DNA from: a virus
IMG/VR virus record: IMGVR_UViG_3300037196_000239
Span: 1-48,960 of that record
Reading direction: 5' to 3' (one strand)
Length of the DNA stretch: 48,960 nt
The notes under the pieces are model-generated. The model was given only the letters and a program-made list of their open reading frames with translations, was not told the DNA's origin and searched no databases. Shown here in pieces: positions 2,937 to 27,599 of this stretch (positions are counted from its first letter, which is position 1; each line of letters starts with the position of its first letter). Position numbers and translations under genes: made by a program.

Positions 2937-3386
2937 TTATTTAATATCTATTACTTTTAGTTGCTTCTCTTCTGGTACAAGCTGTTCTAAATCTATAGTC
3001 AATATACCTTCAGTAAATACTGCCTTATTAACTTTAATATTTTCAGCTAATTGAAAAGAGCGCTTAAATTGCTTTCCTGTAATTCCTCTATGTACTTCAT
3101 AAACCGATTCATCATGTTCTGATTTATGATGCCTACCCTCAAAGCAAGCAGTTTCATATAAATTAGAAGGACTATTTAGAGATATGACAGATAACACTCC
3201 ATCTTTTAAAGTTATCTCTATATCCTTTTTAAGATATCCAGCCAATGCTAGTTCTATCTTAAAATTATTATCTCCTATACGATAAATATTGTACGGAGGA
3301 AATGCTTGTGTGTTAGATGTTTCAAATAGCCTGGAAAATAAAGTATCCATACCAATTGATAACTCTTTGTATTGATTCATATCCAT
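2937..3386 (-). CDS. Small heat-shock protein, Hsp20/alpha-crystallin family
   Basis: An ATP-independent holdase chaperone that binds unfolding proteins in the cytoplasm. The 149 residues show the family layout: a short N-terminal arm ending in YNIYRIGDNNFKIELALAGYLKKDI, the alpha-crystallin beta sandwich (about 35-135, with DGVLSVIS and the late GILTIDLE strand) and a C-terminal I-x-I anchor (IDI). Hsp20 genes occur in several large T4-like phages, where they are thought to help capsid or host protein folding; that role is inferred here. AGGGG lies 6 nt before the ATG, and its own terminator follows. No YCGATAHT core lies upstream; a small hairpin with a CCGAAAGG core does. Confidence 0.9.
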   Translation of the reverse strand: MDMNQYKELSIGMDTLFSRLFETSNTQAFPPYNIYRIGDNNFKIELALAGYLKKDIEITLKDGVLSVISLNSPSNLYETACFEGRHHKSEHDESVYEVHRGITGKQFKRSFQLAENIKVNKAVFTEGILTIDLEQLVPEEKQLKVIDIK

Positions 3387-4145: not shown

Positions 4146-4553
4146 TTAGTAGTCCAGAGAAAATGAGACAGTTTGTGAAATAGTTTGGCCAGTAGACTTC
4201 ATTTGAAGAACAAGCTCAAATATTCGTGTATTTTGTGAAGTGGCTGCTGTTATTTGCGTAACAGTTACACGTGGCTCCCAGGTTGCAATATCAGATATAA
4301 TGGCATCAGCTACCAAACTCTGTGTTGTATCATTAATTGGTTGAAATATTAAATCCTGAGCTGAACTGCCAAAGGAAGGATTTCCTGGCATACAACCTTT
4401 TTTAGAATTTAATAAAACATAAATAGAATCTGTTATCAAATCTAAATCAGTTTCCATGGCAAAAAAACCAGAAGAACTTTTTCTTGGCGGAAATGCTATA
4501 CCAGAAAATGTAGAAGTTGTAGGAGTTGTTGGTGTATTTATTTTATAGCTCAT
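4146..4553 (-). CDS. 25: Baseplate wedge protein, gp25-like (W/gp25 family)
   Basis: A 135-residue homologue of the T4 gp25/P2 gpW-type wedge protein that initiates sheath assembly on the baseplate. The conserved core runs from DLDLITDSIYVLLNSKKG (about 36-53) through PGNPSFGSSAQDLIF to WEPRVTV (E93-P94-R95), the EPR signature of this family. The N-terminal Thr/Pro-rich tail is extra. It is transcribed away from the main baseplate operon (7.4-13.3 kb). GGA lies upstream of the ATG, and the 151-nt gap to the divergent zincin gene must hold its promoter, though no YCGATAHT site faces this gene. Confidence 0.88.
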   Translation of the reverse strand: MSYKINTPTTPTTSTFSGIAFPPRKSSSGFFAMETDLDLITDSIYVLLNSKKGCMPGNPSFGSSAQDLIFQPINDTTQSLVADAIISDIATWEPRVTVTQITAATSQNTRIFELVLQMKSTGQTISQTVSFSLDY

Positions 4554-4655
4554 TTTAAAATTCCTTTATTATATCAGGTAATTAGATTATTTTATTTAGT
4601 ACATTTTCTATATTTAATTAAGTATAGGAAATTATTACTCAACTATTACGAATAT

Positions 4656-4663
4656 CCGATAAT
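4656..4663 (+). promoter_or_regulatory. YCGATAHT promoter-like site (TCCGATAAT)
   Basis: A plus-strand copy, ATATCCGATAATCTTATAGG, ending 41 nt before the start of the plus-strand zincin gene at 4705. That plus genes carry the motif on the plus strand and minus genes on the minus strand is key evidence for a directional promoter. Confidence 0.65.
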
Positions 4664-4704
4664 CTTATAGGAAGTAATTATAGGGGTTATAGTAAATTAA
4701 CTAT

Positions 4705-5529
4705 ATGAAATCATTTAATTCCACTATGTTCATAAAACCAATAAACATAACTGAAATGTCATTAGGTATATCTAATGATTTGTGGAAGTCATTAGAGAAT
4801 CACATAGGAGATAGTGAAGAATGGTTTAATAAATTAATAAAAACATCTAAGTGGTCTTCACAGATTTCCGATGCTACCTTAGAAGCTATTATAAAGAATT
4901 ATTTTTTTACTTTACTAGAAAGAAATAATATAAATTTAATAGATTTGAAATGTAATTTCTACAAGACCGACGAAGCTGATAGTATTTATGGTAAATGTTC
5001 TTATAATTTACTAAATTCTTCTAATAAATTAAAGCATATAAAAGAAATAAAGGCTAAGATAGATATATATATGTTTAGGCTATTAGAAGTTAACTCAAAA
5101 GATGCTATAAAAATATTATACCATGAACTAATTCATTGTGAAGAACTTACCAAAGCCTTAATAAACATAGGCACTGATAAAATGTTTAATACTATTCCAC
5201 AATTTGAATGGGTAAGCGCTGACTTAGTAATAAATAAAAAAGAAAATAAAACAGAAGAAGACTATATAAATGATATCTCAGAAATAAATGCTTATGCCGG
5301 AGAATTAGCCCTACAACTATACTATAAATATAAACTTGAATTTAAAGATAGAACCACTAAAGAACAGGACTATTTTATAAGAACTAAAATAATTCCAAAT
5401 ATAAAAAATGAATTTTCAAATAGCATACAAGTAAATTATATTAACAAATTAATAAAAAGCAATAAATTTTATATAGCGTTAATTAAACAGCTTTCTATAT
5501 TAGCTTCTCATGTGGCAATAAATGAATAA
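4705..5529 (+). CDS. Putative zinc metallopeptidase (HExxH)
   Basis: A 274-residue protein with a zincin motif, LYHELIH (H140-E141-x2-H144), and a downstream ExxAY segment (E193, DISEINAYAGEL) that could supply a third zinc ligand as in gluzincin-type enzymes. The rest is helical and lysine-rich; no signal peptide, so it would act in the cytoplasm or in the virion. The substrate is unknown. A YCGATAHT site precedes it by 41 nt. The 3' end overlaps the LHIPT gene 5522-5845 by 8 nt. Without a wider alignment the zinc site is an inference from the motif. Confidence 0.65.
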   Translation: MKSFNSTMFIKPINITEMSLGISNDLWKSLENHIGDSEEWFNKLIKTSKWSSQISDATLEAIIKNYFFTLLERNNINLIDLKCNFYKTDEADSIYGKCSYNLLNSSNKLKHIKEIKAKIDIYMFRLLEVNSKDAIKILYHELIHCEELTKALINIGTDKMFNTIPQFEWVSADLVINKKENKTEEDYINDISEINAYAGELALQLYYKYKLEFKDRTTKEQDYFIRTKIIPNIKNEFSNSIQVNYINKLIKSNKFYIALIKQLSILASHVAINE

Positions 5530-17987: not shown

Positions 17988-18446
17988 ATGGATAAAAGAA
18001 ATTTATTTGAGCAAATGAATGAAAGTGCCTATGAGAATAGCACTAATCCCTTTGATTCATTATATGTAGTTAGTGAAGGAGATTCTTTTACAGAATCTGA
18101 GTTGACATATACAGAACCTACAAGTGTTAAAATGCCGCATAATATGACTCAGGCAGAAATAGAAGAATGGCGCCATAGATTAGAACTTGAAGAAGAAATG
18201 AATCCATTTAATGAGCCTGTTGAACCAGAAAATATAAATTTACCCTCTGAAGAACCTCTACCAGATGAGGCTTTACGTTCAGAGCTTCCTCCAGAAGAGG
18301 GTTTGGGTGGTAATGAGGGTGAAATTCCTAGCGATCTACCTCCAGAAGAAGCTGAACACGAAGAAATAATAGACACAGTAGAGACACTATCAGCTAAAAT
18401 TGATAAATTAGCTGCTAAACTTGATGCCATTACTAGTGCTTTATAG
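17988..18446 (+). CDS. Acidic low-complexity protein with CTS-like N terminus
   Basis: A 152-residue, very acidic Pro/Glu-rich protein (PPEE and PSEEPLPDE units) ending in a short coiled coil (ETLSAKIDKLAAKLDAI). The start, MDKRNLFEQMNESAYENS, resembles the capsid-targeting tags of T4-like internal or scaffold proteins. A scaffold-like or packaged role is possible. It opens the plus-strand cassette; GAGG lies 11 nt before the ATG, with no YCGATAHT site. Confidence 0.65.
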   Translation: MDKRNLFEQMNESAYENSTNPFDSLYVVSEGDSFTESELTYTEPTSVKMPHNMTQAEIEEWRHRLELEEEMNPFNEPVEPENINLPSEEPLPDEALRSELPPEEGLGGNEGEIPSDLPPEEAEHEEIIDTVETLSAKIDKLAAKLDAITSAL

Positions 18447-18457
18447 GATAGATTACT

Positions 18458-19366
18458 ATGTCGAAAGTGATACTTACAGTAGGTCCTCCAGGTGTTGGCA
18501 AGACCACCTGGATTAAAAATTATGTAGCTAATATAAATGAGCCTTATGTGATTTGTTCTACTGACCACTATTTTGAAAAAGAAGGTAAGTATGTCTATGA
18601 ACCTTCTAAGATTGGATTAGCACATAATAGCTGCTTTGAAAAATTTGTAAATGCTCTTCGCTCTGAAATACCTCTTATTTTTATAGACAATACTAACGTA
18701 ATAAAAGAACAAAGAGCTAAATATATAAATAAAGCTAATGAATATGGCTATGAAGTAGAAGTAAAAGTATTTCCAGTAGATATAAACAGAATAAAATTAC
18801 AAAATAAGTCTCAAGAACGAATTGATGCTAATAAAATAATACCTGACTCAGTTATAGATAGAATGTCTAGTAAATTAGATTTAGATCCAGGAACTTGGAA
18901 ACTAGTTAATGGTAAATTAGTAAAAATTTTAGAAACAAAACAATTTATTAGAGTTTCTGAAATTCAAGAAATGGCTGCTACCCCTCCACCTCCTACTACA
19001 GCCGAATTAAATCCTCCAGCACAAACACAACAAGTTAGTAGTTCTATGCCTTCTTGGATACAGCAACCAGATTCTGCAACTACTATAGGCTTTGCTGGTA
19101 AGGAAGCCTCTAATGCTATGGGTGATAAGGGATTACAAAGACAAGTAGCTACTAAAAATGCTATATCAGGCCTAACTAATAGGATTGCTTCTAAATTAAC
19201 TGCTAATAATCGTAAATTTGATGCTAACCAATTATCTTCTTGGATATCTTCTAATGCTTCTACAAATCAATTTTATACTGCCCAAGATGGAACTACTTAT
19301 GCTTTAGCTTCTGTTCAATATAGTAGTTTAGTAACATTTTTACGTCAACTATCTCCTACTCAATAG
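18458..19366 (+). CDS. P-loop kinase of the N4BP2L1/polynucleotide-kinase type, fused to a Gln/Ser-rich tail
   Basis: Residues 1-150 form an AAA_33-type kinase domain: Walker A GPPGVGKTT (9-17), CSTDHYF (D36, the acidic base position), and FIDNTN (D77-N80), followed by ANEYGYEVEV and a basic lid helix. This group phosphorylates polynucleotide 5' ends or related small substrates; T4 PNK uses the same fold. Residues 165-302 are Pro/Gln/Ser-rich and then a small globular part, with no phosphatase motif, so end-healing as in T4 Pnkp is not supported. It starts 11 nt after the acidic gene. Confidence 0.75.
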   Translation: MSKVILTVGPPGVGKTTWIKNYVANINEPYVICSTDHYFEKEGKYVYEPSKIGLAHNSCFEKFVNALRSEIPLIFIDNTNVIKEQRAKYINKANEYGYEVEVKVFPVDINRIKLQNKSQERIDANKIIPDSVIDRMSSKLDLDPGTWKLVNGKLVKILETKQFIRVSEIQEMAATPPPPTTAELNPPAQTQQVSSSMPSWIQQPDSATTIGFAGKEASNAMGDKGLQRQVATKNAISGLTNRIASKLTANNRKFDANQLSSWISSNASTNQFYTAQDGTTYALASVQYSSLVTFLRQLSPTQ

Positions 19367-19372
19367 GTAAAT

Positions 19373-19921
19373 ATGAAGAAGCTAGACAAAACAATGTTTA
19401 TCAGAAACTCTAAAGAATTTTTAGATGAGTTACATGCCATGCCTATACATCCTCCAGCTTTAATACATTTAAAACCAGCCCCAGCAGGAGATTGGTATGA
19501 TAGATTACATTTAGCTAATTTAGAATCTATATATAATCTACCTCAGGGTATATTAAAACACATGATTGATATAGAATCTGGTGGAAATCCATTAGCGCAC
19601 TCTAACAAGGGAGCAAAAGGACTATTTCAGATTATGGATAAAAAGCATAGTGGCTTTACTGGAGACCCCTTTAATCCAATAGAGGCTGCTAAATATGCTG
19701 CTAAAACTTTAAATGATTTAGCTCATCATTTTGGAAATTATAAAGAAGCTGTTGCAGCATATGATTGGGGAATAGGAAATATGACAACTCATGGACTAGA
19801 AAATGCCCCAGAAGAAACAAAAAATTACATAAAAAAATTTGAACAGCATGGCACTAATCTAGGCAATGTTATGCATTCTGTAAATGACGTTCACACATTT
19901 GAAAGGAAGCATAAGATATAA
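19373..19921 (+). CDS. Lytic transglycosylase (SLT family)
   Basis: Cleaves the murein glycan between MurNAc and GlcNAc, leaving 1,6-anhydro ends. The core is IDIESGGNPLAHSNKGAKGL (E68 catalytic, then GLFQIM) and the later AAYDWGIGNM. The 182 residues include a 55-residue N-terminal extension with SKEFLDELH and no signal peptide, which suits a virion-borne enzyme more than a secreted one. It sits 6 nt after the kinase gene and overlaps an alternative start of the next gene. Confidence 0.88.
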   Translation: MKKLDKTMFIRNSKEFLDELHAMPIHPPALIHLKPAPAGDWYDRLHLANLESIYNLPQGILKHMIDIESGGNPLAHSNKGAKGLFQIMDKKHSGFTGDPFNPIEAAKYAAKTLNDLAHHFGNYKEAVAAYDWGIGNMTTHGLENAPEETKNYIKKFEQHGTNLGNVMHSVNDVHTFERKHKI

Positions 19922-19922
19922 T

Positions 19923-20432
19923 ATGACTAATAAAAGTTTAATACGAAATGAAATAAAAAGAGTTTTAAACATACAGGAAGAAACAGAGGAACCTTTAACT
20001 AAAGCTCCAACTAAAGAAGATATTAAAAAAGAACCCAAAGAAGAACTTATTAAAAAAGATAAAAAAGAAGTGTATGGTAAGGAACTAATACTAGATATAC
20101 ATGAAGTTGAAAAAGATAAAATTACAGTAAAAAATATAAAAACATTTGCTGAAGAGTTATGTGATGAAATTGGAATGACAAAAGGTATTAAAGCAATAGT
20201 GTGGGGAACTGATTCAGATAAGGATGAGTTAAAGGATCCGCGAGCAGATGGGCTGTCATGCATACAATTTCTTCATAGTTCTTCTATTGTAGTTCATGGA
20301 ATAGATTTGCTTGGACGCATTTTTATAAATATTTTTTCATGTAAGGAATTTTCAACTGATAAAGCTAAAAACTTTGCTTTGAAATCATGGGGTGGAAAAA
20401 TAGCCTCAGAACATGTAATTATACGTAAATAA
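19923..20432 (+). CDS. speD: AdoMet decarboxylase-like (SpeD/SpeH) pyruvoyl enzyme
   Basis: Residues 52-169 match bacterial class 1B AdoMet decarboxylase: LDIHEVEKDKI, a Gly-Leu-Ser strand, SSSIVVH, INIFSCKEF and a terminal IIRK. Taking S120 as the pyruvoyl-forming serine puts His at +5 (H125) and Cys at +20 (C140), the spacing of S63, H68 and C83 in the Thermotoga enzyme. The residue before the serine is Ser, not the usual Glu. The product would be decarboxylated AdoMet for spermidine; some SpeD relatives act on ornithine or arginine instead. The first 50 residues are a Lys/Glu-rich extension with a CTS-like start. The ATG at 19923 is preferred (GGAAG 13 nt upstream) over 19884, which has no ribosome site. 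Confidence 0.75.
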   Translation: MTNKSLIRNEIKRVLNIQEETEEPLTKAPTKEDIKKEPKEELIKKDKKEVYGKELILDIHEVEKDKITVKNIKTFAEELCDEIGMTKGIKAIVWGTDSDKDELKDPRADGLSCIQFLHSSSIVVHGIDLLGRIFINIFSCKEFSTDKAKNFALKSWGGKIASEHVIIRK

Positions 20433-20446
20433 AGGGAAGAAATAAA

Positions 20447-21442
20447 ATGAAGGATAGTAAATTAAATGGAGTTTTCATAATCCCTACGGGGATTTCAAGT
20501 TCCATAGGTGGTCATGCCTCTGCTCTTTCTCAAGTTAATTTGATTGCTTCTTGTTGTAACAAACTTTTAGCAAACCCAAATTCAGTAAATGCTAGTGATA
20601 TAAATACCATGGCAAACAATGTATGGTATGTAGAAGGCTCAACTTTAGATAGAATGCTTAATGAAAATATTAACCTTAAAGAAACAAAAACATATAATAA
20701 AATACTTTGTGTAGTAAATTCTCCTTTATCTATTGCCTCAATAAATGCTGTTAATGCTGCACGATGGACTTCTGGCTGTGATATAACTCTTGTTGAACTA
20801 AATACAGCCTTAATAATGGAGGCTTTTATTCATCCAAATGGGGTTGCTGATGGAAATATTTATGGTATGGATGAACTTATAAATCAGGTTAAGAATTTAG
20901 ATTTTGATATACTAACTGTACATACTCCAATAATATGTTCTAAAGAGATATCAGATTATTATTGGATTAATGGTGGCACTTCTCCATGGGGTGCTGTAGA
21001 AGCTAAATTATCAAAATATCTTAGTTATGCTTTAAATAAACAAGCAGTTCATAGTCCAGTTGAGTTTTTAGAAGATGCTTTATTTAATAAAATTATAGTA
21101 GATAAACAACAAGCTGCTGAAATTATAAGTCAAACATTTGGACAATGTATGTGGATTGGTTCGCGGAGAGCTCCTACAATAGACATAACAAAAAATAATA
21201 AAAACTTATCAAATGATGATATAGATTTTATGGTTAGTCCCTATAATTGCTGGTCAACTCCTCATATAGCCTGTATAAATAATAATATACCAATTATAGT
21301 GGTAAAAGAAAATACTACATGTCTTAAAGATGTAATATATCCTGATAATAAAAATATTATATTTGTTGAAAATTATTTAGAGGCAGCTGGTGTTGTTCAA
21401 TGTCTTAATGCTGGTGTAGATTATAGACTTATTACCCTATAG
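20447..21442 (+). CDS. DUF3326-family protein
   Basis: A 331-residue match to DUF3326, a family known mainly from cyanobacteria and other bacteria and of unknown function. Landmarks: VFIIPTGISSSIGGHAS near the N terminus, ANPNSVNASDINTMANN, WYVEGSTLD, PWGAVEAKLSK, AVHSPVEF, SRRAPTI, VSPYNCWSTPHIACINN and IPIIVVKENTT. The length is normal and no conserved block seems missing, so it is probably an active protein. It follows the SpeD-like gene by 14 nt with GGGAAG before its ATG, so the two are in one operon. A role in polyamine or AdoMet-related metabolism is only a guess from this pairing. Confidence 0.8.
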   Translation: MKDSKLNGVFIIPTGISSSIGGHASALSQVNLIASCCNKLLANPNSVNASDINTMANNVWYVEGSTLDRMLNENINLKETKTYNKILCVVNSPLSIASINAVNAARWTSGCDITLVELNTALIMEAFIHPNGVADGNIYGMDELINQVKNLDFDILTVHTPIICSKEISDYYWINGGTSPWGAVEAKLSKYLSYALNKQAVHSPVEFLEDALFNKIIVDKQQAAEIISQTFGQCMWIGSRRAPTIDITKNNKNLSNDDIDFMVSPYNCWSTPHIACINNNIPIIVVKENTTCLKDVIYPDNKNIIFVENYLEAAGVVQCLNAGVDYRLITL

Positions 21443-21464: not shown

Positions 21465-21496
21465 AAATAAAGGACCAGTAATAAGGTCCTTTATTT
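21465..21496. terminator. Bidirectional terminator between convergent operons
   Basis: A 12-bp inverted repeat (21465-21476 with 21485-21496, GGACC/GGTCC core, 8-nt loop) flanked by A-rich and T-rich arms. It lies between the plus-strand DUF3326 gene and the minus-strand tail fibre gene and can end transcription from both sides. The rest of the 132-nt gap shows nothing else. Confidence 0.85.
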
Positions 21497-21574: not shown

Positions 21575-23863
21575 TTATATTTCTGTTGCTGATATTGAGA
21601 TATTTGACACAGAGGCGGTACCTCCAGTAACTGCCATCAAAGAACAATCTATCCAATAAGCAGTAGCAATAGTTAATCCAGTAGCACTATATGTAATAGT
21701 AAATGGGGTTTTTTGAGCAGCCACTGATGAAATTATTGGCCCTATTGACAAACCAAGTAGTGTTCCTGTAACTGCTGCTCCATTTATGGGTGCTGTTCCT
21801 GTACCGTATCTCAAATCTACTGTTGCTCCATCTCCTGCTGTAGTATTTGATAACATACCACAAATAGTTACCTCTACTCTTGTTGAATTTACTGGAGTAA
21901 TAGTTCCTCCAATTGCCATCATAACAGCAGTAGTTAAGGTAGTTCCAGTAGGGGCAGCAGATGTATGGGAAGTAACAGCACTGGAGGTTGCTAAAATAGT
22001 ATGACCACTTATTTGAACAGCACCACCACCCTGAGTAACTATATTTAAACCGATTGAACCGCTTTCTGAGTTGTTAGCAGTTCCTATTTGTACAGCTCCT
22101 CCATTAGAGCCTTGTACAGCAAACCAATTAGTAGCACTTGATACTGGAGAAACAACCATCTGAGTTCCTCCAGATGACATAACTAGAAAGGAACCATCTG
22201 AACGTAATCTGGTGTTTACTGAAGTTCCAATATTATTTCCCATATCAAAACTTCCAGTGCTGTTATATCCACCACTCAAATACATAGTAGTATCTGTAGA
22301 GGAGGCCCCATTACCATTATATCCAGTAAAATACTGTAGACCTATATGATGACAAAACATTCCTATCTCACAATTAGGGCCTAGTCCTGGTTGATTTATA
22401 GCATGTGTAACTCCATTTGAGTCTTTTAATAAATCCAGGGTATTTATGGTTATATTTCCTGATATATAGGAAGAAACACAAACATTGGTAGCACTAGGAA
22501 CAACCAATGCAGCACCGGCCGCAGCATATTCAATTTGTGTCCCTGATCCAGAAATTCCACCACCTGACCCTGTAATAGTTATACCATTTAATCCTATTTG
22601 TAACCAACCTCCATTCCAAATAAGCGAGGAACTATTTAATAATATACTATAAGTTCCATATGTATTACTTATTAAATTACAATTTGATAAATACACAGCA
22701 CTAGTCCATACTGATCCAGTTCCAGCATTTACGGTAATTATAGAAGTATATGCTTGGGTATAATGGCCAGAAAAATTACAATTAGCAAAGTTAATATACT
22801 CTACTTGGTAATTAGTAGAGCCACCTATCAGTAATCCAGCACTGGTAAAGTTCTCGCAAGAAAAATTAGATATATTAATACCATTACAGCCACCTCCCAA
22901 AAATAATCCAAGTGTTCCTTGTCCATTAGGGCCGCTCCCATTAAGACACACATTATTTAAGGATACACCATAAACAAATCCAGTATCGTTTCCTACCTGT
23001 ATTACTGGACTAGATAAAGTCCAAGCCGTAAGATAGGCTTTTGGAGTATACCAGTCCTGAGGTTGCCCACATTCTAGTAATACTCCATTTTGAGTTATTA
23101 ATATATTACAAGCATAATAACCACATGGAACAATTACCTTACCTATACCATGTGCTACAGCATAAGCAATGGCATTATTAAAAGCACTTGATTGATCAAA
23201 GGTAAGATTATTTGGAATAGCACCAAAAGATATAACATTTACACCACTAGTATCCAGAATAGACTGAAGACTGGATGAAGTAGATCCTCCAGTAGCAGTA
23301 TAAGATATAGCTGAAGGAACAGCACCTGGGGCAGTATTCCAGCTACCGTCTCCTCTTAAATAAGTACTACTACTAGCTGTTCCTGTTACATTCAATGAAG
23401 TTACTGGTATAGTATTAGAGGTAATACTAGCCCCAGATGTTATAATAGAAGAGCAAGTAATAGAACCTGTAAAAGTAGGGGAAGAATTTAAAACTGCATA
23501 GGAAGACAGAGCAGAAGAGGTTATATAACCAGCAGTATTAGAAGTATTATATGGAGTAAATCCTAATGCGTTAGTTATTTGGTTTGAAGTAAGACCGGTT
23601 AATCCCAAAGCAGAACCGTTGAATTGATTAGCTGCTAAATTACCACTAGAGTCTCTAAGAGCAACACTAGAAGGAATGGGAGATACACTACCACTATTAC
23701 CTAAAGCAGCTTGTCCTACTGCTGTGTCTATTGCTAATAGATTGGCTATACTTGATGGTGATGCGCTTTGATCTAATTCTAAATTAAGAAGTGGAGTTCT
23801 TAATGGAAGAGTTGATACACTAGTAGTTATAATTCCTGGTGTAGTTATGCGTTGTTCTGACAT
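21575..23863 (-). CDS. Tail fibre or tailspike with beta-helix domain
   Basis: A 762-residue receptor-binding protein. Residues 1-185 are a repetitive fibre shaft with phage-fibre phrases (SSPTFTGSI, GTASSSTYLRGDGSWN). Residues 209-250 (VISFGAIPNNLTFDQSSAFN, then an Ala-rich helix and KVIVPCGYYA) mark the start of a pectate-lyase-like beta helix that runs to about residue 500 in Gly/Asn/Ser-rich rungs. The last 100 residues form a separate beta-rich tip. No catalytic set could be assigned. GGAG lies 7 nt before the ATG; two TATAAATA strings (T4-late-like) lie upstream in the 105-nt gap on the minus strand but could be chance in AT-rich DNA. Confidence 0.85.
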   Translation of the reverse strand: MSEQRITTPGIITTSVSTLPLRTPLLNLELDQSASPSSIANLLAIDTAVGQAALGNSGSVSPIPSSVALRDSSGNLAANQFNGSALGLTGLTSNQITNALGFTPYNTSNTAGYITSSALSSYAVLNSSPTFTGSITCSSIITSGASITSNTIPVTSLNVTGTASSSTYLRGDGSWNTAPGAVPSAISYTATGGSTSSSLQSILDTSGVNVISFGAIPNNLTFDQSSAFNNAIAYAVAHGIGKVIVPCGYYACNILITQNGVLLECGQPQDWYTPKAYLTAWTLSSPVIQVGNDTGFVYGVSLNNVCLNGSGPNGQGTLGLFLGGGCNGINISNFSCENFTSAGLLIGGSTNYQVEYINFANCNFSGHYTQAYTSIITVNAGTGSVWTSAVYLSNCNLISNTYGTYSILLNSSSLIWNGGWLQIGLNGITITGSGGGISGSGTQIEYAAAGAALVVPSATNVCVSSYISGNITINTLDLLKDSNGVTHAINQPGLGPNCEIGMFCHHIGLQYFTGYNGNGASSTDTTMYLSGGYNSTGSFDMGNNIGTSVNTRLRSDGSFLVMSSGGTQMVVSPVSSATNWFAVQGSNGGAVQIGTANNSESGSIGLNIVTQGGGAVQISGHTILATSSAVTSHTSAAPTGTTLTTAVMMAIGGTITPVNSTRVEVTICGMLSNTTAGDGATVDLRYGTGTAPINGAAVTGTLLGLSIGPIISSVAAQKTPFTITYSATGLTIATAYWIDCSLMAVTGGTASVSNISISATEI

Positions 23864-23968: not shown

Positions 23969-25003
23969 CTACTCATACTTCTGAAGTTGCTCATTCCAGG
24001 TCAAGAATAACAGACCATTTTCTTTCCTTTTATTATTAATCCAAATTAATGATTGCTTTTTAGTATGATTATATCCTAGAGCTTTATGTAATTGCTTATG
24101 CCATTCAATTATTAAAGGCAAGCCATTTGAATAATCTAATAAGTCATTTTCTAAGGCCAGTAAAGTTTCTTCTGATAGGCCCATATAATCTTCTGTTGTT
24201 TTTATTTTGAACTTCATAAGGATATTAGAAACCGTATTCAGATGATGGATTACCTCCTTAGAAGTGTCTTGAATGCCGTAAAGAAGTCTTAATTTTTTAG
24301 TCCATTTCTCACTTATGTATTCTCTTATTATTCTACTTAATTTTACTACTTCACCAGAGTTACCTGTCCCGCCGGCTGCCTTTGATTTTAATTCATTTGC
24401 CTTACAGCCGCAAGATTTTACTTCCATTCTTATTAAACTAGATGCCTTTCTTTCTATCAATTTATTACACCCATGACACAAACATAAAATTTTTCCTGAT
24501 TGAAGTAGTTTTAGTGGTTCTATATATTCAACTTGGCCTATGCTTTTAACTTTTTCAAAATTTATTTTTTGTTTTTCTATTAACAAACATCCACAACTAG
24601 TAACAAGACCATCAATTAATGACCTAGAAGAAGCTATATGATAATTACCACAATCACATAAGCAATTCCAATAAGCTAAATTACTTTTATTTTTTTCTTT
24701 TCTAGGAACTGTATTTAAAGCAGTCAATCTACCAAATTTTTTATTTACTAAATCACTAGATGCTAACTTAATTTTTAAACATCCACAACTTTTAGTATCC
24801 CCTTTAACTAGGTCCTGTGAAGAAACTAGAGTAAAATTACCACAAGAACACTGTGCCTTATAATAAATGACCCTACTTTTATTTTTTAGACATTTACCAA
24901 CTAGGTCTAAAATTTTTAGCTGCCCGAAAACCTTACCAATAATGTTGTTTTTTGGAGATACATTACTATCAAACTGATATTTATATAGATCTTCTAATTT
25001 CAC
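23969..25003 (-). CDS. HNH endonuclease with three CxC/SCGC zinc modules
   Basis: A 344-residue free-standing homing-type endonuclease. Three repeats of the 'GxxFGrL... C-x-C-G ... SCGC' kind lie at about 22-78, 88-142 and 155-202 (Cys pairs C52/C54 with C73/C75; C114-C118 with C137/C139; C174-C179 with C198/C200); these probably bind zinc and DNA. A phage-type HNH region follows (VIHHLNTVSN, H253/H254; IIEWHKQLHKALG, H302/H306). GTG at 25003, one base after the nrdJ stop, is preferred; a longer reading frame would overlap nrdJ by 89 nt. It probably arrived as a mobile gene beside nrdJ. Confidence 0.78.
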   Translation of the reverse strand: MKLEDLYKYQFDSNVSPKNNIIGKVFGQLKILDLVGKCLKNKSRVIYYKAQCSCGNFTLVSSQDLVKGDTKSCGCLKIKLASSDLVNKKFGRLTALNTVPRKEKNKSNLAYWNCLCDCGNYHIASSRSLIDGLVTSCGCLLIEKQKINFEKVKSIGQVEYIEPLKLLQSGKILCLCHGCNKLIERKASSLIRMEVKSCGCKANELKSKAAGGTGNSGEVVKLSRIIREYISEKWTKKLRLLYGIQDTSKEVIHHLNTVSNILMKFKIKTTEDYMGLSEETLLALENDLLDYSNGLPLIIEWHKQLHKALGYNHTKKQSLIWINNKRKENGLLFLTWNEQLQKYE

Positions 25004-25004
25004 A

Positions 25005-27599
25005 TTAACCGCATTTTGAATTAGAGTAATTACAACTAGAACATACCTCAGTAAGACATCCAGACTCACGTTTATAGAGTAACTCAGAACCACATTCTGG
25101 GCATGGCTTATTTTTAGCTTTTTCTTTAGCTATAACTTCCTCATCTGAAATATAGTTTTTAAGAACTCTAGCAAACACAGTTGGGGCATCATATAATGAA
25201 GACCCACTCTTAGCTAGCTGTTCTACGATTTCAGAAACTGCTATTCCATTTCGTAGTGACATACTAATCATTCTTGCTATAGTTATAACATCACCTGCTG
25301 GAAATAGATTTCCTAAGTTATTAACCTTTAAAATATCTTCTGGGTCGTCTGAAAGTTGGATTTGAAGAGTGTAATGACCACGCGATTTTTTAGTTAAAGT
25401 AGCAGATTTATATTTAGTTGGAAGACTTAGACCGGATTCTTCCCCGCCAAAAATCTCACAGGGGATATTATCTGCTTTTCCTACTAAAATCATATAAGAT
25501 TTTTCCTTATAACGAGTCTTAAATATATCAACATCAGTAGTTTTTGGTCTTTCTATACTTTTATTTGGCTTATTTTTAGGCTCTTCTTTTATAACATTCA
25601 AAACTCCAGAACGACATTCATCAACATAAACGGTAAGTCCCTTGCATCCAGCTTTAAAGGCACTCATATATAGCTTGCCAACAGTCTCTTGTGTAGTTCC
25701 TTTGGGTAGGTTTATTGTTGAACTAATGGCATGGTCAATATATAGTTGAATAGTTGCCTGAAGTTTTATTCTCATATCACCATTAATATTACCTGCTTTA
25801 ACAAATACAGAAGGGTCACCACCTGCATTTATACAATCCTCAATAGCTTGATGCTTTACTTTGAATTGAACAAAGTCATTAGTTCCTGGCTTTTTAACAT
25901 TTCTAGTATACTCTTCAGTTTCAAATACTGGCTCTAATCCAGAAGAAGTATTACGCATCAATATTGACATTGAACCATTTGGAGCACTGGTTAAACAAGC
26001 TATATTTCTTCGTGGCTTATTTTGAAGTTCTTTTGGTAGTCTTGACAGAAATACATGGCCATTTTCTTTAGTAGCATCATAAGCAGGAAAAGCACCCTTC
26101 TCAATAGCTAACTGTTCAGAAGAAGCATATACAGAGTCTCTTAATAGCTCATAAATACGTCTAGAAGTCTCAATAGCTTCTTCAGAGTCGTACCGTAGCC
26201 CAAGCATTGCTAACGTGTCTGCGAGCCCTGTACAGCCCATTCCAATACGTCTTCCTAATATAGCTGAATTGCGTAATCCTTCTAATGGAAGTAGCATTAT
26301 ATCTATATTTTTAATATTGTCCTGAGCTCTTGTAGATAACTTAACAACACGTTCAAATTCTGTATAATGAAATGTAGCATTGTCTTTATATGGACTAATA
26401 ACAAATGCTGTAAGGTTATGTGTACCTAAGCAACAAGAATCATCTCTACTAGCAGGAACCTCAGCACAAGGATTAAAACCTACAGTCTCAAAGGAATACG
26501 ATACATTCTTAGTAGTATTTGTTATTGGATCAATAATAATATAATCAGTAATCTCTGAATAACAGTCAGCGGGAGATTCTTTCTTTACTAACTCAAAATT
26601 TATTATTCCAGGTTCTGCTGAATTAGTAGCTCCTTCTATAAGTTTGCTCCAAATATCCTTAGCTTTTACAGTTTTTGAAATTCTAGGGTATTGGTTATTC
26701 TCAAACTCATACCAAAGTTCATAATCTAAGTCATTTTCTACTGCGTTAATAAAAGTGTTATCTACTAATACTGACACATTAGCATGGGAAGTTGATTTTA
26801 GTCTATCAGCAATACTAGAATACTTCCAATTATTAATATCTATTCCAGATTCTGATAACTCATTAAAAAACCATTGCTTATCTAAATCCTGCTTCATCTG
26901 TATAAAGTTAAAAATGTCTGGGTGATGAACTTCAAGGCAGCACATTAAAGCACCACGCCTACCTGATTGTCCTATGGCAGCAGTAACATGTGAGAAGAAG
27001 TCGCAAAAACTATAAGCCCCGGTAGAACTTTTGGCAGCATTGTTAGTTTGAGAGCCACTTGGACGCAGATTAGATAAGTTTATACCACAACCACCTCTTG
27101 CTGCATATATCTTAGCCATATTCTTTGCTGTATCGAAGATAGAATCAAGGTTGTCAGATATTTTTTCTAAAATAAAACAATTACTGGCTGAAGCTTTTAC
27201 ATATGGATTACCTAAAGAATACAGTCCAGAACCCTGAGGAGTATATTTCCAATTAGTCAGAATATCTCTAAATTGAGTAAACCAAAAATCATAAGTTTTT
27301 GATATATCTGGATTAGTTTTTACTTCTTCCTCAGCGAGAACTTTAGCAATTCTATCCCACATATCTTCTGGGGTTTGTTCAAGACAAATTCCACTATTAT
27401 CATGTAAGGCATACTTCTGTATAAATATAGCAGAGGCTAAATCAGCAGTATTCGGCATTACTTTCTGATTCTCAATGTACCATTTATAACAATCTCCATA
27501 GGCTACGGCATCTGATAATTGTGCTGCTGTAGCGGTTTCTACCGCTACGTTCTTATTTAGAAGATACTGTAATGCTTCGTCATTTAGTGCTTCTGGCAT
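25005..27599 (-). CDS. nrdJ: Class II (B12-dependent) ribonucleotide reductase
   Basis: Makes deoxyribonucleotides with adenosylcobalamin as radical source. In the 864-residue form (ATG at 27599) the landmarks are SNCF (C141, redox Cys), SGRRGALM, FNPCAE (N376, C378 catalytic thiyl, E380), CCLGTHNL (C389/C390), GMGCTGLAD and APNGSMSIL, with a C-terminal Cys cluster (CPECGS ... CSSC ... KCG) typical of large NrdJ proteins. The gene is intact, with no intein or intron. A GTG 14 codons upstream is possible but lacks a ribosome site; the ATG has CAGGAG 9 nt before it. A YCGATAHT site lies 68 nt upstream. The enzyme needs B12 from the host or medium. Confidence 0.93.
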   Translation of the reverse strand: MPEALNDEALQYLLNKNVAVETATAAQLSDAVAYGDCYKWYIENQKVMPNTADLASAIFIQKYALHDNSGICLEQTPEDMWDRIAKVLAEEEVKTNPDISKTYDFWFTQFRDILTNWKYTPQGSGLYSLGNPYVKASASNCFILEKISDNLDSIFDTAKNMAKIYAARGGCGINLSNLRPSGSQTNNAAKSSTGAYSFCDFFSHVTAAIGQSGRRGALMCCLEVHHPDIFNFIQMKQDLDKQWFFNELSESGIDINNWKYSSIADRLKSTSHANVSVLVDNTFINAVENDLDYELWYEFENNQYPRISKTVKAKDIWSKLIEGATNSAEPGIINFELVKKESPADCYSEITDYIIIDPITNTTKNVSYSFETVGFNPCAEVPASRDDSCCLGTHNLTAFVISPYKDNATFHYTEFERVVKLSTRAQDNIKNIDIMLLPLEGLRNSAILGRRIGMGCTGLADTLAMLGLRYDSEEAIETSRRIYELLRDSVYASSEQLAIEKGAFPAYDATKENGHVFLSRLPKELQNKPRRNIACLTSAPNGSMSILMRNTSSGLEPVFETEEYTRNVKKPGTNDFVQFKVKHQAIEDCINAGGDPSVFVKAGNINGDMRIKLQATIQLYIDHAISSTINLPKGTTQETVGKLYMSAFKAGCKGLTVYVDECRSGVLNVIKEEPKNKPNKSIERPKTTDVDIFKTRYKEKSYMILVGKADNIPCEIFGGEESGLSLPTKYKSATLTKKSRGHYTLQIQLSDDPEDILKVNNLGNLFPAGDVITIARMISMSLRNGIAVSEIVEQLAKSGSSLYDAPTVFARVLKNYISDEEVIAKEKAKNKPCPECGSELLYKRESGCLTEVCSSCNYSNSKCG

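Follow-up and report, generated by a model that had tools for sequence, protein, structure and literature searches.

The window analyzed here is the whole 48,960-nucleotide stretch of a virus record (IMG/VR IMGVR_UViG_3300037196_000239, positions 1 to 48,960). Its + strand carries an ORF at 20447–21442, uninterrupted from ATG to TAA, which codes for a DUF3326 protein of 331 aa. The protein matches Pfam PF11805 at 171.7 bits (cut-off 25; E 2.8e-50) across profile positions 2–334 of 337, and at this E-value a chance match is ruled out. It represents a short form, without the N-terminal domain of ~80 residues that most cellular copies have. The gene closes a run of five + strand genes, and the features of this region are, in order:

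17988..18446, + strand: acidic 152-aa protein that opens the run (ORF; no Pfam family)
18458..19366, + strand: kinase-like protein with a P-loop (AAA_33), second gene of the run (Pfam 3.3e-16; PHROG ATPase 1.5e-21, polynucleotide kinase 4.1e-16)
19373..19921, + strand: SLT-type transglycosylase, ending 1 bp ahead of the SpeD-like ATG (Pfam SLT E 2.1e-15; PHROG lytic tail protein 2.5e-28)
19923..20432, + strand: SpeD-like pyruvoyl decarboxylase of 169 aa, the immediate upstream partner (Pfam AdoMet_dc E 1.8e-8; S120, H125, C140)
20433..20439, + strand: AGGGAAG, a Shine-Dalgarno-like site between the SpeD-like stop and the DUF3326 ATG (sequence)
20447..21442, + strand: DUF3326 protein, 331-aa short form (PF11805 E 2.8e-50; AlphaFold2 pLDDT 90.3)
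21465..21496, no strand assigned: 12-pair hairpin that separates the DUF3326 gene from the gene converging on it (21575–23863), called on the − strand (pattern match in a terminator-like scan)

Fourteen base pairs separate the SpeD-like stop from the DUF3326 ATG, and the hairpin may mark the end of a transcript. A role in DNA hypermodification, prompted by the upstream kinase-like gene, was set aside, as a by-eye reading of the phage sequence recognized no hypermodification gene. Elsewhere in the window, the phage codes for an Hsp20 small heat-shock protein (2937–3386; PHROG 1.5e-34), and an ORF of 374 aa (23969–25093) containing repeats of CxC-type motifs overlaps the ribonucleotide reductase gene at that gene's end; repeat-rich proteins similar to the latter recur elsewhere in the phage.

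The record contains SbcC/SbcD-like, dUTPase, ribonucleotide reductase, baseplate-hub, primase and exonuclease genes of phage families. An overlapping 80-kb contig, identical across the 6.1 kb compared, adds about 52 kb with terminase, portal, major head protein and tail genes. The terminase, portal and head genes rule out bacterial contamination of the record, which is, judging from this gene content, a fragment of a tailed-phage genome. Thus, the profile match, the phage families of the record and the structural genes of the overlapping contig together bear out the initial claim, made from the letters alone in an earlier note, that a DUF3326 protein is encoded in a phage. Two contigs from other metagenomes, L003 and L004, have their first base (position 1) at one and the same point within the DUF3326 gene. 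A 127-bp run (window 21299–21425) is identical in the window and both contigs, beyond which L004 is wholly different. This sharing looks like an assembly-graph branch between two phages with a common 3′ end of the gene; either a recent exchange of that end or a chimera is possible.

The PF11805 family is known from cyanobacteria, plants, and scattered bacteria and archaea, many uncultured lineages included. AlphaFold2 models of the window protein and of a full-length cellular copy (pLDDT 90.3 and 92.9, respectively) predict an alpha/beta protein in which a glycine-rich loop, PTGIGxxxGG, follows the first core strand, and models of the long form display an extra beta-alpha-beta-beta N-terminal domain. 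Structure searches of PDB and BFVD with these two confident models returned nothing at E <= 0.001, and a sequence search of PDB recovered no DUF3326 relative. Since no solved structure matches with confidence, the chemistry of the family is unconstrained by fold. Lumazine synthases recur among the matches to the cellular model (search probability up to 1.00, TM by target up to 0.58, rmsd 7.6); these may be a weak hint of a shared layered alpha/beta core, and we rest no mechanism on them. A likeness to ornithine carbamoyltransferase, recurrent in the first structure search, was dropped at a TM near 0.2.

The earlier note had read the complete set of landmark motifs in the window protein and described it as intact. 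The assignment to DUF3326 stands, at the E-value of 2.8e-50, and several of the quoted landmarks proved to be degenerate forms. The window protein deviates at 22 of 75 near-invariant columns (conserved in >=93% of rows), compared to <=8 in the other complete copies, and has lost several near-invariant polar residues. G25, D26, H43, N179 and A201 are altered, although these positions are 100% conserved in the other aligned homologs. In canonical copies, the conserved D, H, N, R and K at positions 26, 43, 179, 221 and 237 (window numbering) are candidates for site residues. Its terminal branch is also long (3.28, median 0.36), unlike those of other phage copies, a value that the unusual letter make-up for which this row was flagged might inflate. 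Membership of the family by descent is sound, but retention of the family activity is in doubt, and the description as intact is not secure. It is thus conceivable, though we incline against it, that the window copy is decaying or repurposed and has lost the family reaction. The altered columns and the branch length point in that direction; the open ORF, the confidently predicted fold, the ribosome-binding-like site ahead of the gene and the catalytic Ser, His and Cys retained by its SpeD-like partner argue the other way.

That partner matches the AdoMet_dc profile at 35.1 bits (cut-off 25). The equivalents of S63, H68 and C83 of the T. maritima SpeD (numbering from PMC10407285) are S120, H125 and C140 in the window protein. 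Across the SpeD-like family, the Ser and His are kept in 42/42 members and the Cys in 41/42, and because these equivalents are kept, formation of the pyruvoyl group is expected. The earlier note had described the neighbor as SpeD-like, which holds; to call it a SpeD enzyme of polyamine or AdoMet metabolism would be an overstatement. The window protein has no match to the AdoMet decarboxylase (AdoMetDC) equivalog TIGR03330, for which its best relatives reach 22.9–31.8 bits against a cut-off of 75.65. The WPE motif that follows His68 is absent from the window protein. It is likewise absent from the SpeD of phage phiN3, reported to be a working AdoMetDC (PMC9992855), so we dropped any choice of substrate based on motifs. 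The active-site block of the SpeD-like family, QFxxTSxIxxHTL...YINIFSCK, features an invariant Gln, a near-invariant Thr (Ser in the window protein) and a common Tyr. SpeD-derived ornithine decarboxylases (SpeDC) are reported to have diagnostic Gln, Thr, Phe and Tyr residues (PMC10407285), which the block may resemble. One SpeD-like protein, from a PtuAB-linked operon (L030, 5619–5990), has Phe at the catalytic Cys position.

We then looked for the pair in other viruses. With the SpeD-like protein as sole query, we recovered a very different phage contig, on which a complete DUF3326 begins 3 bp after a SpeD-like gene of 35% identity. The search of viral databases that the earlier note had called for yielded 20 viral-contig loci by profile, the window not counted; no relative of DUF3326 was found in INPHARED phages, PLSDB plasmids or PHROGs. 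In all 20 loci DUF3326 adjoins one of three types of gene, namely SpeD-like (11), phosphatidylserine-decarboxylase-like (PSD-like; 6) or ornithine-cyclodeaminase-family (3). The SpeD-like gene stands upstream of DUF3326 in all 11 of its loci, and directly so except in L022, where a gene for an HNH-type protein of 195 aa (4411–4998) splits the pair with the order kept. The PSD-like gene (Pfam PS_Dcarbxylase E 1.7e-17) adjoins DUF3326 directly downstream in five loci and divergently in the sixth, L023. In the remaining three phages, a gene of the ornithine cyclodeaminase/mu-crystallin family (2.4e-51) directly upstream places a dehydrogenase/cyclodeaminase where the decarboxylase would stand. 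Portal, terminase, tape measure, head protein and UvsX genes adjoin the pair in several of these relatives, ruling out bacterial contamination for them. Terminase was found on five of the viral contigs with DUF3326, four of them above the cut-off, whereas the viral origin of L024, and to a lesser degree of L015 and L021, rests on the collection's own classification. Two of the PSD-linked contigs have a terminase; an NCLDV capsid search matched nowhere at all and is thus uninformative on a giant-virus origin. The locus L080, assigned to a Heimdallarchaeota bin chromosome, has DUF3326 neighbors in common with the phage contigs L009 and L011, which suggests a provirus or binned viral DNA.

For cells, we analyzed the best 80 of 235 loci in a genome scan, spread over numerous bacterial phyla and a small number of archaea, with three cut at a contig edge. 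Among the 77 with an uncut upstream flank, a decarboxylase lies directly upstream of DUF3326 in 70. This is SpeD-like in 38 and, in 32, a PLP enzyme most like the carboxynorspermidine decarboxylase NspC (TIGR01047 E 9.5e-99; 330 bits, below the cut-off of 409), the latter count including L075 and L079, which were absent from the first gene calling. The decarboxylase profiles matched no other gene among the 783 flanking genes of the cellular loci, and the gaps to DUF3326 are mostly −4 to +57 bp, the HNH insertion in the viral locus L022 being the exception. Co-occurrence with speD-like genes, which the earlier note had proposed to look for, is therefore found in 11/20 viral and 38/80 cellular loci, and this recurrence makes the phage neighbor a stronger context clue than that note had it. 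Further, the pairwise distances of SpeD-like and DUF3326 proteins are correlated (r = 0.76; 0/2000 permutations as high).

The cellular sample is biased: the 80 loci scored best against a query alignment in which SpeD-paired phage sequences were abundant. Their rate of pairing is inflated by this sampling, judging from an independent draw that gave only 5/12. In that independent family search, DUF3326 was present in 7/294, 3/201 and 5/190 genomes of three groups (the query genome of each included). Genomes with DUF3326 make up 1.5–2.6% of the three groups, and this rare, scattered occurrence is what one would expect if the module were a mobile accessory. The decarboxylase neighbors of the 12 independently drawn loci comprise three NspC-like, one SpeD-like and one OKR_DC_1 (5.3e-50), the last a fold-I Orn/Lys/Arg decarboxylase and thus a fourth, unrelated decarboxylase family. 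The other seven include three of a cyanobacterium-like short group without a decarboxylase, one between nonribosomal peptide synthetase (NRPS) genes and three without any of these. The cyanobacterium-like subgroup (L131–L133) has no decarboxylase neighbor, and in two of its three loci read the DUF3326 N-terminal domain is a separate ORF of ~78 codons just upstream. Cyanobacterial DUF3326 has been reported beside ferredoxin 3 and DUF650 (PMC4284462). In L137 (6753–8078), DUF3326 lies between two NRPS-like genes, the downstream one matched by Pfam, with no decarboxylase seen nearby; such a setting would suit an enzyme that makes an unusual building block. These independent genomes, the cyanobacterium-like subgroup and the three phages with a cyclodeaminase-family gene instead count against a reading based on the pairing, as do the absence of a confident fold match and the polar residues lost from the window copy.

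In a tree of 107 DUF3326 proteins, the SpeD and NspC labels require 10 changes each, at least 5 of them forced by well-supported branches. The PSD-linked phages form one clade and the cyclodeaminase-linked phages another, and the window protein and eight further SpeD-linked copies of the short form group together (support 99). Thus, DUF3326 genes adjoin a decarboxylase in both cells and phages, the decarboxylases belong to four unrelated families, and two of these have repeatedly interchanged. Such repeated replacement by unrelated enzymes is our main argument that decarboxylation itself, rather than SpeD as such, is probably what the neighbor supplies. The families would then be able to stand in for one another by carrying out one and the same decarboxylation, on the substrate or product of DUF3326.

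On this basis, we lean, by a little over even, toward DUF3326 being a metabolic enzyme that acts in series with an amino-acid-type decarboxylase, the two jointly yielding a small amine or aminoalkyl group, with the phage pair being carried as cargo. Less surely, DUF3326 would act first and build or expose an alpha-amino-acid (alpha-amino-carboxylate) intermediate, from which the decarboxylase would then strip CO2, giving an amine. The ancestral substrates of SpeD and NspC, SAM and carboxynorspermidine, respectively, both carry a 3-amino-3-carboxypropyl end on which the enzymes act. Since it is common to the two, such an end is the simplest guess for the intermediate; step order, acceptor and product are all part of the conjecture. 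In phages, the pair would be accessory cargo, often between late genes, and in cells it would be joined to variable modules.

The order might also be the reverse. The decarboxylase would then act first on ornithine, arginine or SAM, and DUF3326 would use the resulting putrescine, agmatine or decarboxylated SAM, for example in a conjugation. We treat this as a serious rival, albeit one we think will probably not prevail. SpeD homologs in phages and cells are known to have become L-ornithine or L-arginine decarboxylases (PMC9992855, PMC10407285); the AR-fold and OKR_DC families include ornithine and arginine enzymes, as the cyclodeaminase family of the three phages includes ornithine enzymes; and the Rhodospirillales operons add a glutathionylspermidine-synthase-like ligase. 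Yet the PLP neighbor most resembles carboxynorspermidine decarboxylase, an enzyme whose substrate is a condensed intermediate and not a free amino acid, and no decarboxylase was seen near the DUF3326 gene that lies between NRPS genes. To our knowledge, PSD-like enzymes do not decarboxylate ornithine or arginine.

A quite improbable reading, in our judgment, is ordinary auxiliary polyamine metabolism, with the phage SpeD-like enzyme boosting polyamines for replication and DUF3326 as a loosely connected passenger. Marine phages commonly carry speD, and several of the phage homologs function as AdoMetDC, ODC or ADC enzymes (PMC9992855), but a passenger would hardly be found beside the gene in every viral case recovered via DUF3326, co-diverge with the SpeD-like protein, and keep a decarboxylase neighbor even where SpeD is replaced. 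Moreover, the families examined beside the pair included no aminopropyltransferase, and the INPHARED phages with a related speD, such as phiN3 with its reported AdoMetDC, are without DUF3326. Returning to the favored two-step reading, the cellular neighborhoods offer indications of where its product might be used.

Foremost among these neighborhoods is the Septu module PtuAB, which directly precedes the pair in 14 of the 80 cellular loci, irrespective of decarboxylase type (8 SpeD-like, 6 NspC-like). Profiles identified the ATPase PtuA (1.4e-54) and the HNH protein PtuB (2e-59) and confirmed two more loci (profile loci L030, L046 and L106), with the remaining loci of the 14 assigned by clustering. 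No PtuAB was seen in the other 66 operons, some of which carry cyclase, HD-domain, YgiC/YgiB/DUF350 or other modules. Ahead of the pair are a YgiC-like ligase, DUF1190 and DUF350 in 11/80 loci (Rhodospirillales and relatives), a cyclase/TPR cluster in six (which the cyclase profile matches weakly and which includes members with TPR alone) and an HD-type protein in two to three (assigned by eye); SecA/AMP-ligase sets occur in seven Chloroflexota-type loci. Some flanks contain integrase-like genes, read by eye, and defense-type helicases. This variety of modules, notably PtuAB, points to a metabolite used in conflict, signaling or envelope contexts rather than in housekeeping.

In L042 (3066–7089) and related Rhodospirillales loci, DUF350, DUF1190 (YgiB), a YgiC-like glutathionylspermidine-synthase-type ligase, SpeD-like and DUF3326 genes form one run; a related cluster, without DUF3326, has been discussed for PSP systems (PMC11237479). 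A homolog of 4HFCP synthase (MfnB of the methanofuran pathway) lies near PtuAB, on either strand, in L046, L074, L082, L097, L099 and L105.

The phage pair might serve counter-defense, making, modifying or removing the metabolite of the PtuAB-linked operons and so blunting a Septu-like defense. We regard this as unlikely. The position of PtuAB directly ahead of the pair and the integrase-like and helicase genes in the flanks speak for it, and Septu is known to cleave host tRNA-Tyr in E. coli, with phages having other ways round it (PMC13096335). Against it, most of the cellular operons show no PtuAB, and the link of DUF3326 to Septu is one of genomic proximity. There is no PtuAB in the operon of the window, where the adjacent genes are those for the kinase-like protein, the transglycosylase, the SpeD-like protein and the acidic 152-aa protein, and DUF3326 has no PADLOC match. 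A broader speculation, only slightly less improbable to us, is that the pair forms the arm that makes the metabolite in a family of conflict or stress systems with a variable effector slot (PtuAB, cyclase-TPR, HD-domain or YgiC/YgiB/DUF350). Phages would have repeatedly captured that arm alone, with the decarboxylase exchanged among unrelated families, for self-protection or exploitation of a signal.

The pairing of a decarboxylase with DUF3326 is not described in the openly licensed literature covered here that mentions DUF3326. It provides a first strong functional clue for a family without an assigned function or solved fold. The repeated replacement of the decarboxylase makes a proposed two-step reaction testable, with four natural versions for comparison. 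In addition, the Septu link and the recurrence in unrelated phages make it conceivable that a metabolite, either diffusible or base-modifying, takes part in the phage–host arms race.

Compared with known systems, the window protein is a full-length match to the PF11805 profile, with the PTG, GG, PNxVNAS, YVEG and PWG landmarks in common with the family. It differs in the absence of the N-terminal domain, in the alteration of many near-invariant polar residues and in a phage setting absent from PHROGs and INPHARED. Its partner belongs to the same family as the class 1b SpeD/AdoMet_dc enzymes, including the SpeD-derived ornithine and arginine decarboxylases (PMC9992855, PMC10407285), with the pyruvoyl-forming Ser and the catalytic His and Cys common to both. 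In contrast to class 1b SpeD, the window-type protein has a distinct active-site block, scores far below the AdoMetDC equivalog cut-off, and is linked to DUF3326 and not to speE.

In cellular operons, genes immediately ahead of the pair match the profiles of Septu PtuA and PtuB, but neither the SpeD-like protein nor DUF3326 belongs to Septu. In microcin C biosynthesis, a proposed route (route a) has MccD transfer an aminocarboxypropyl group, followed by decarboxylation by MccE (PMC10491745). This combination of a group-transfer enzyme and a PLP decarboxylase to give an aminopropyl group is an analogy in the way of working alone.

In the CASDH/CASDC pathway, carboxyspermidine is built and then decarboxylated. 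With an NspC-like protein as the alternative partner of DUF3326, the two-enzyme logic of building and then decarboxylating would be parallel; DUF3326, however, occupies the place of the dehydrogenase, to which it has no detectable relation.
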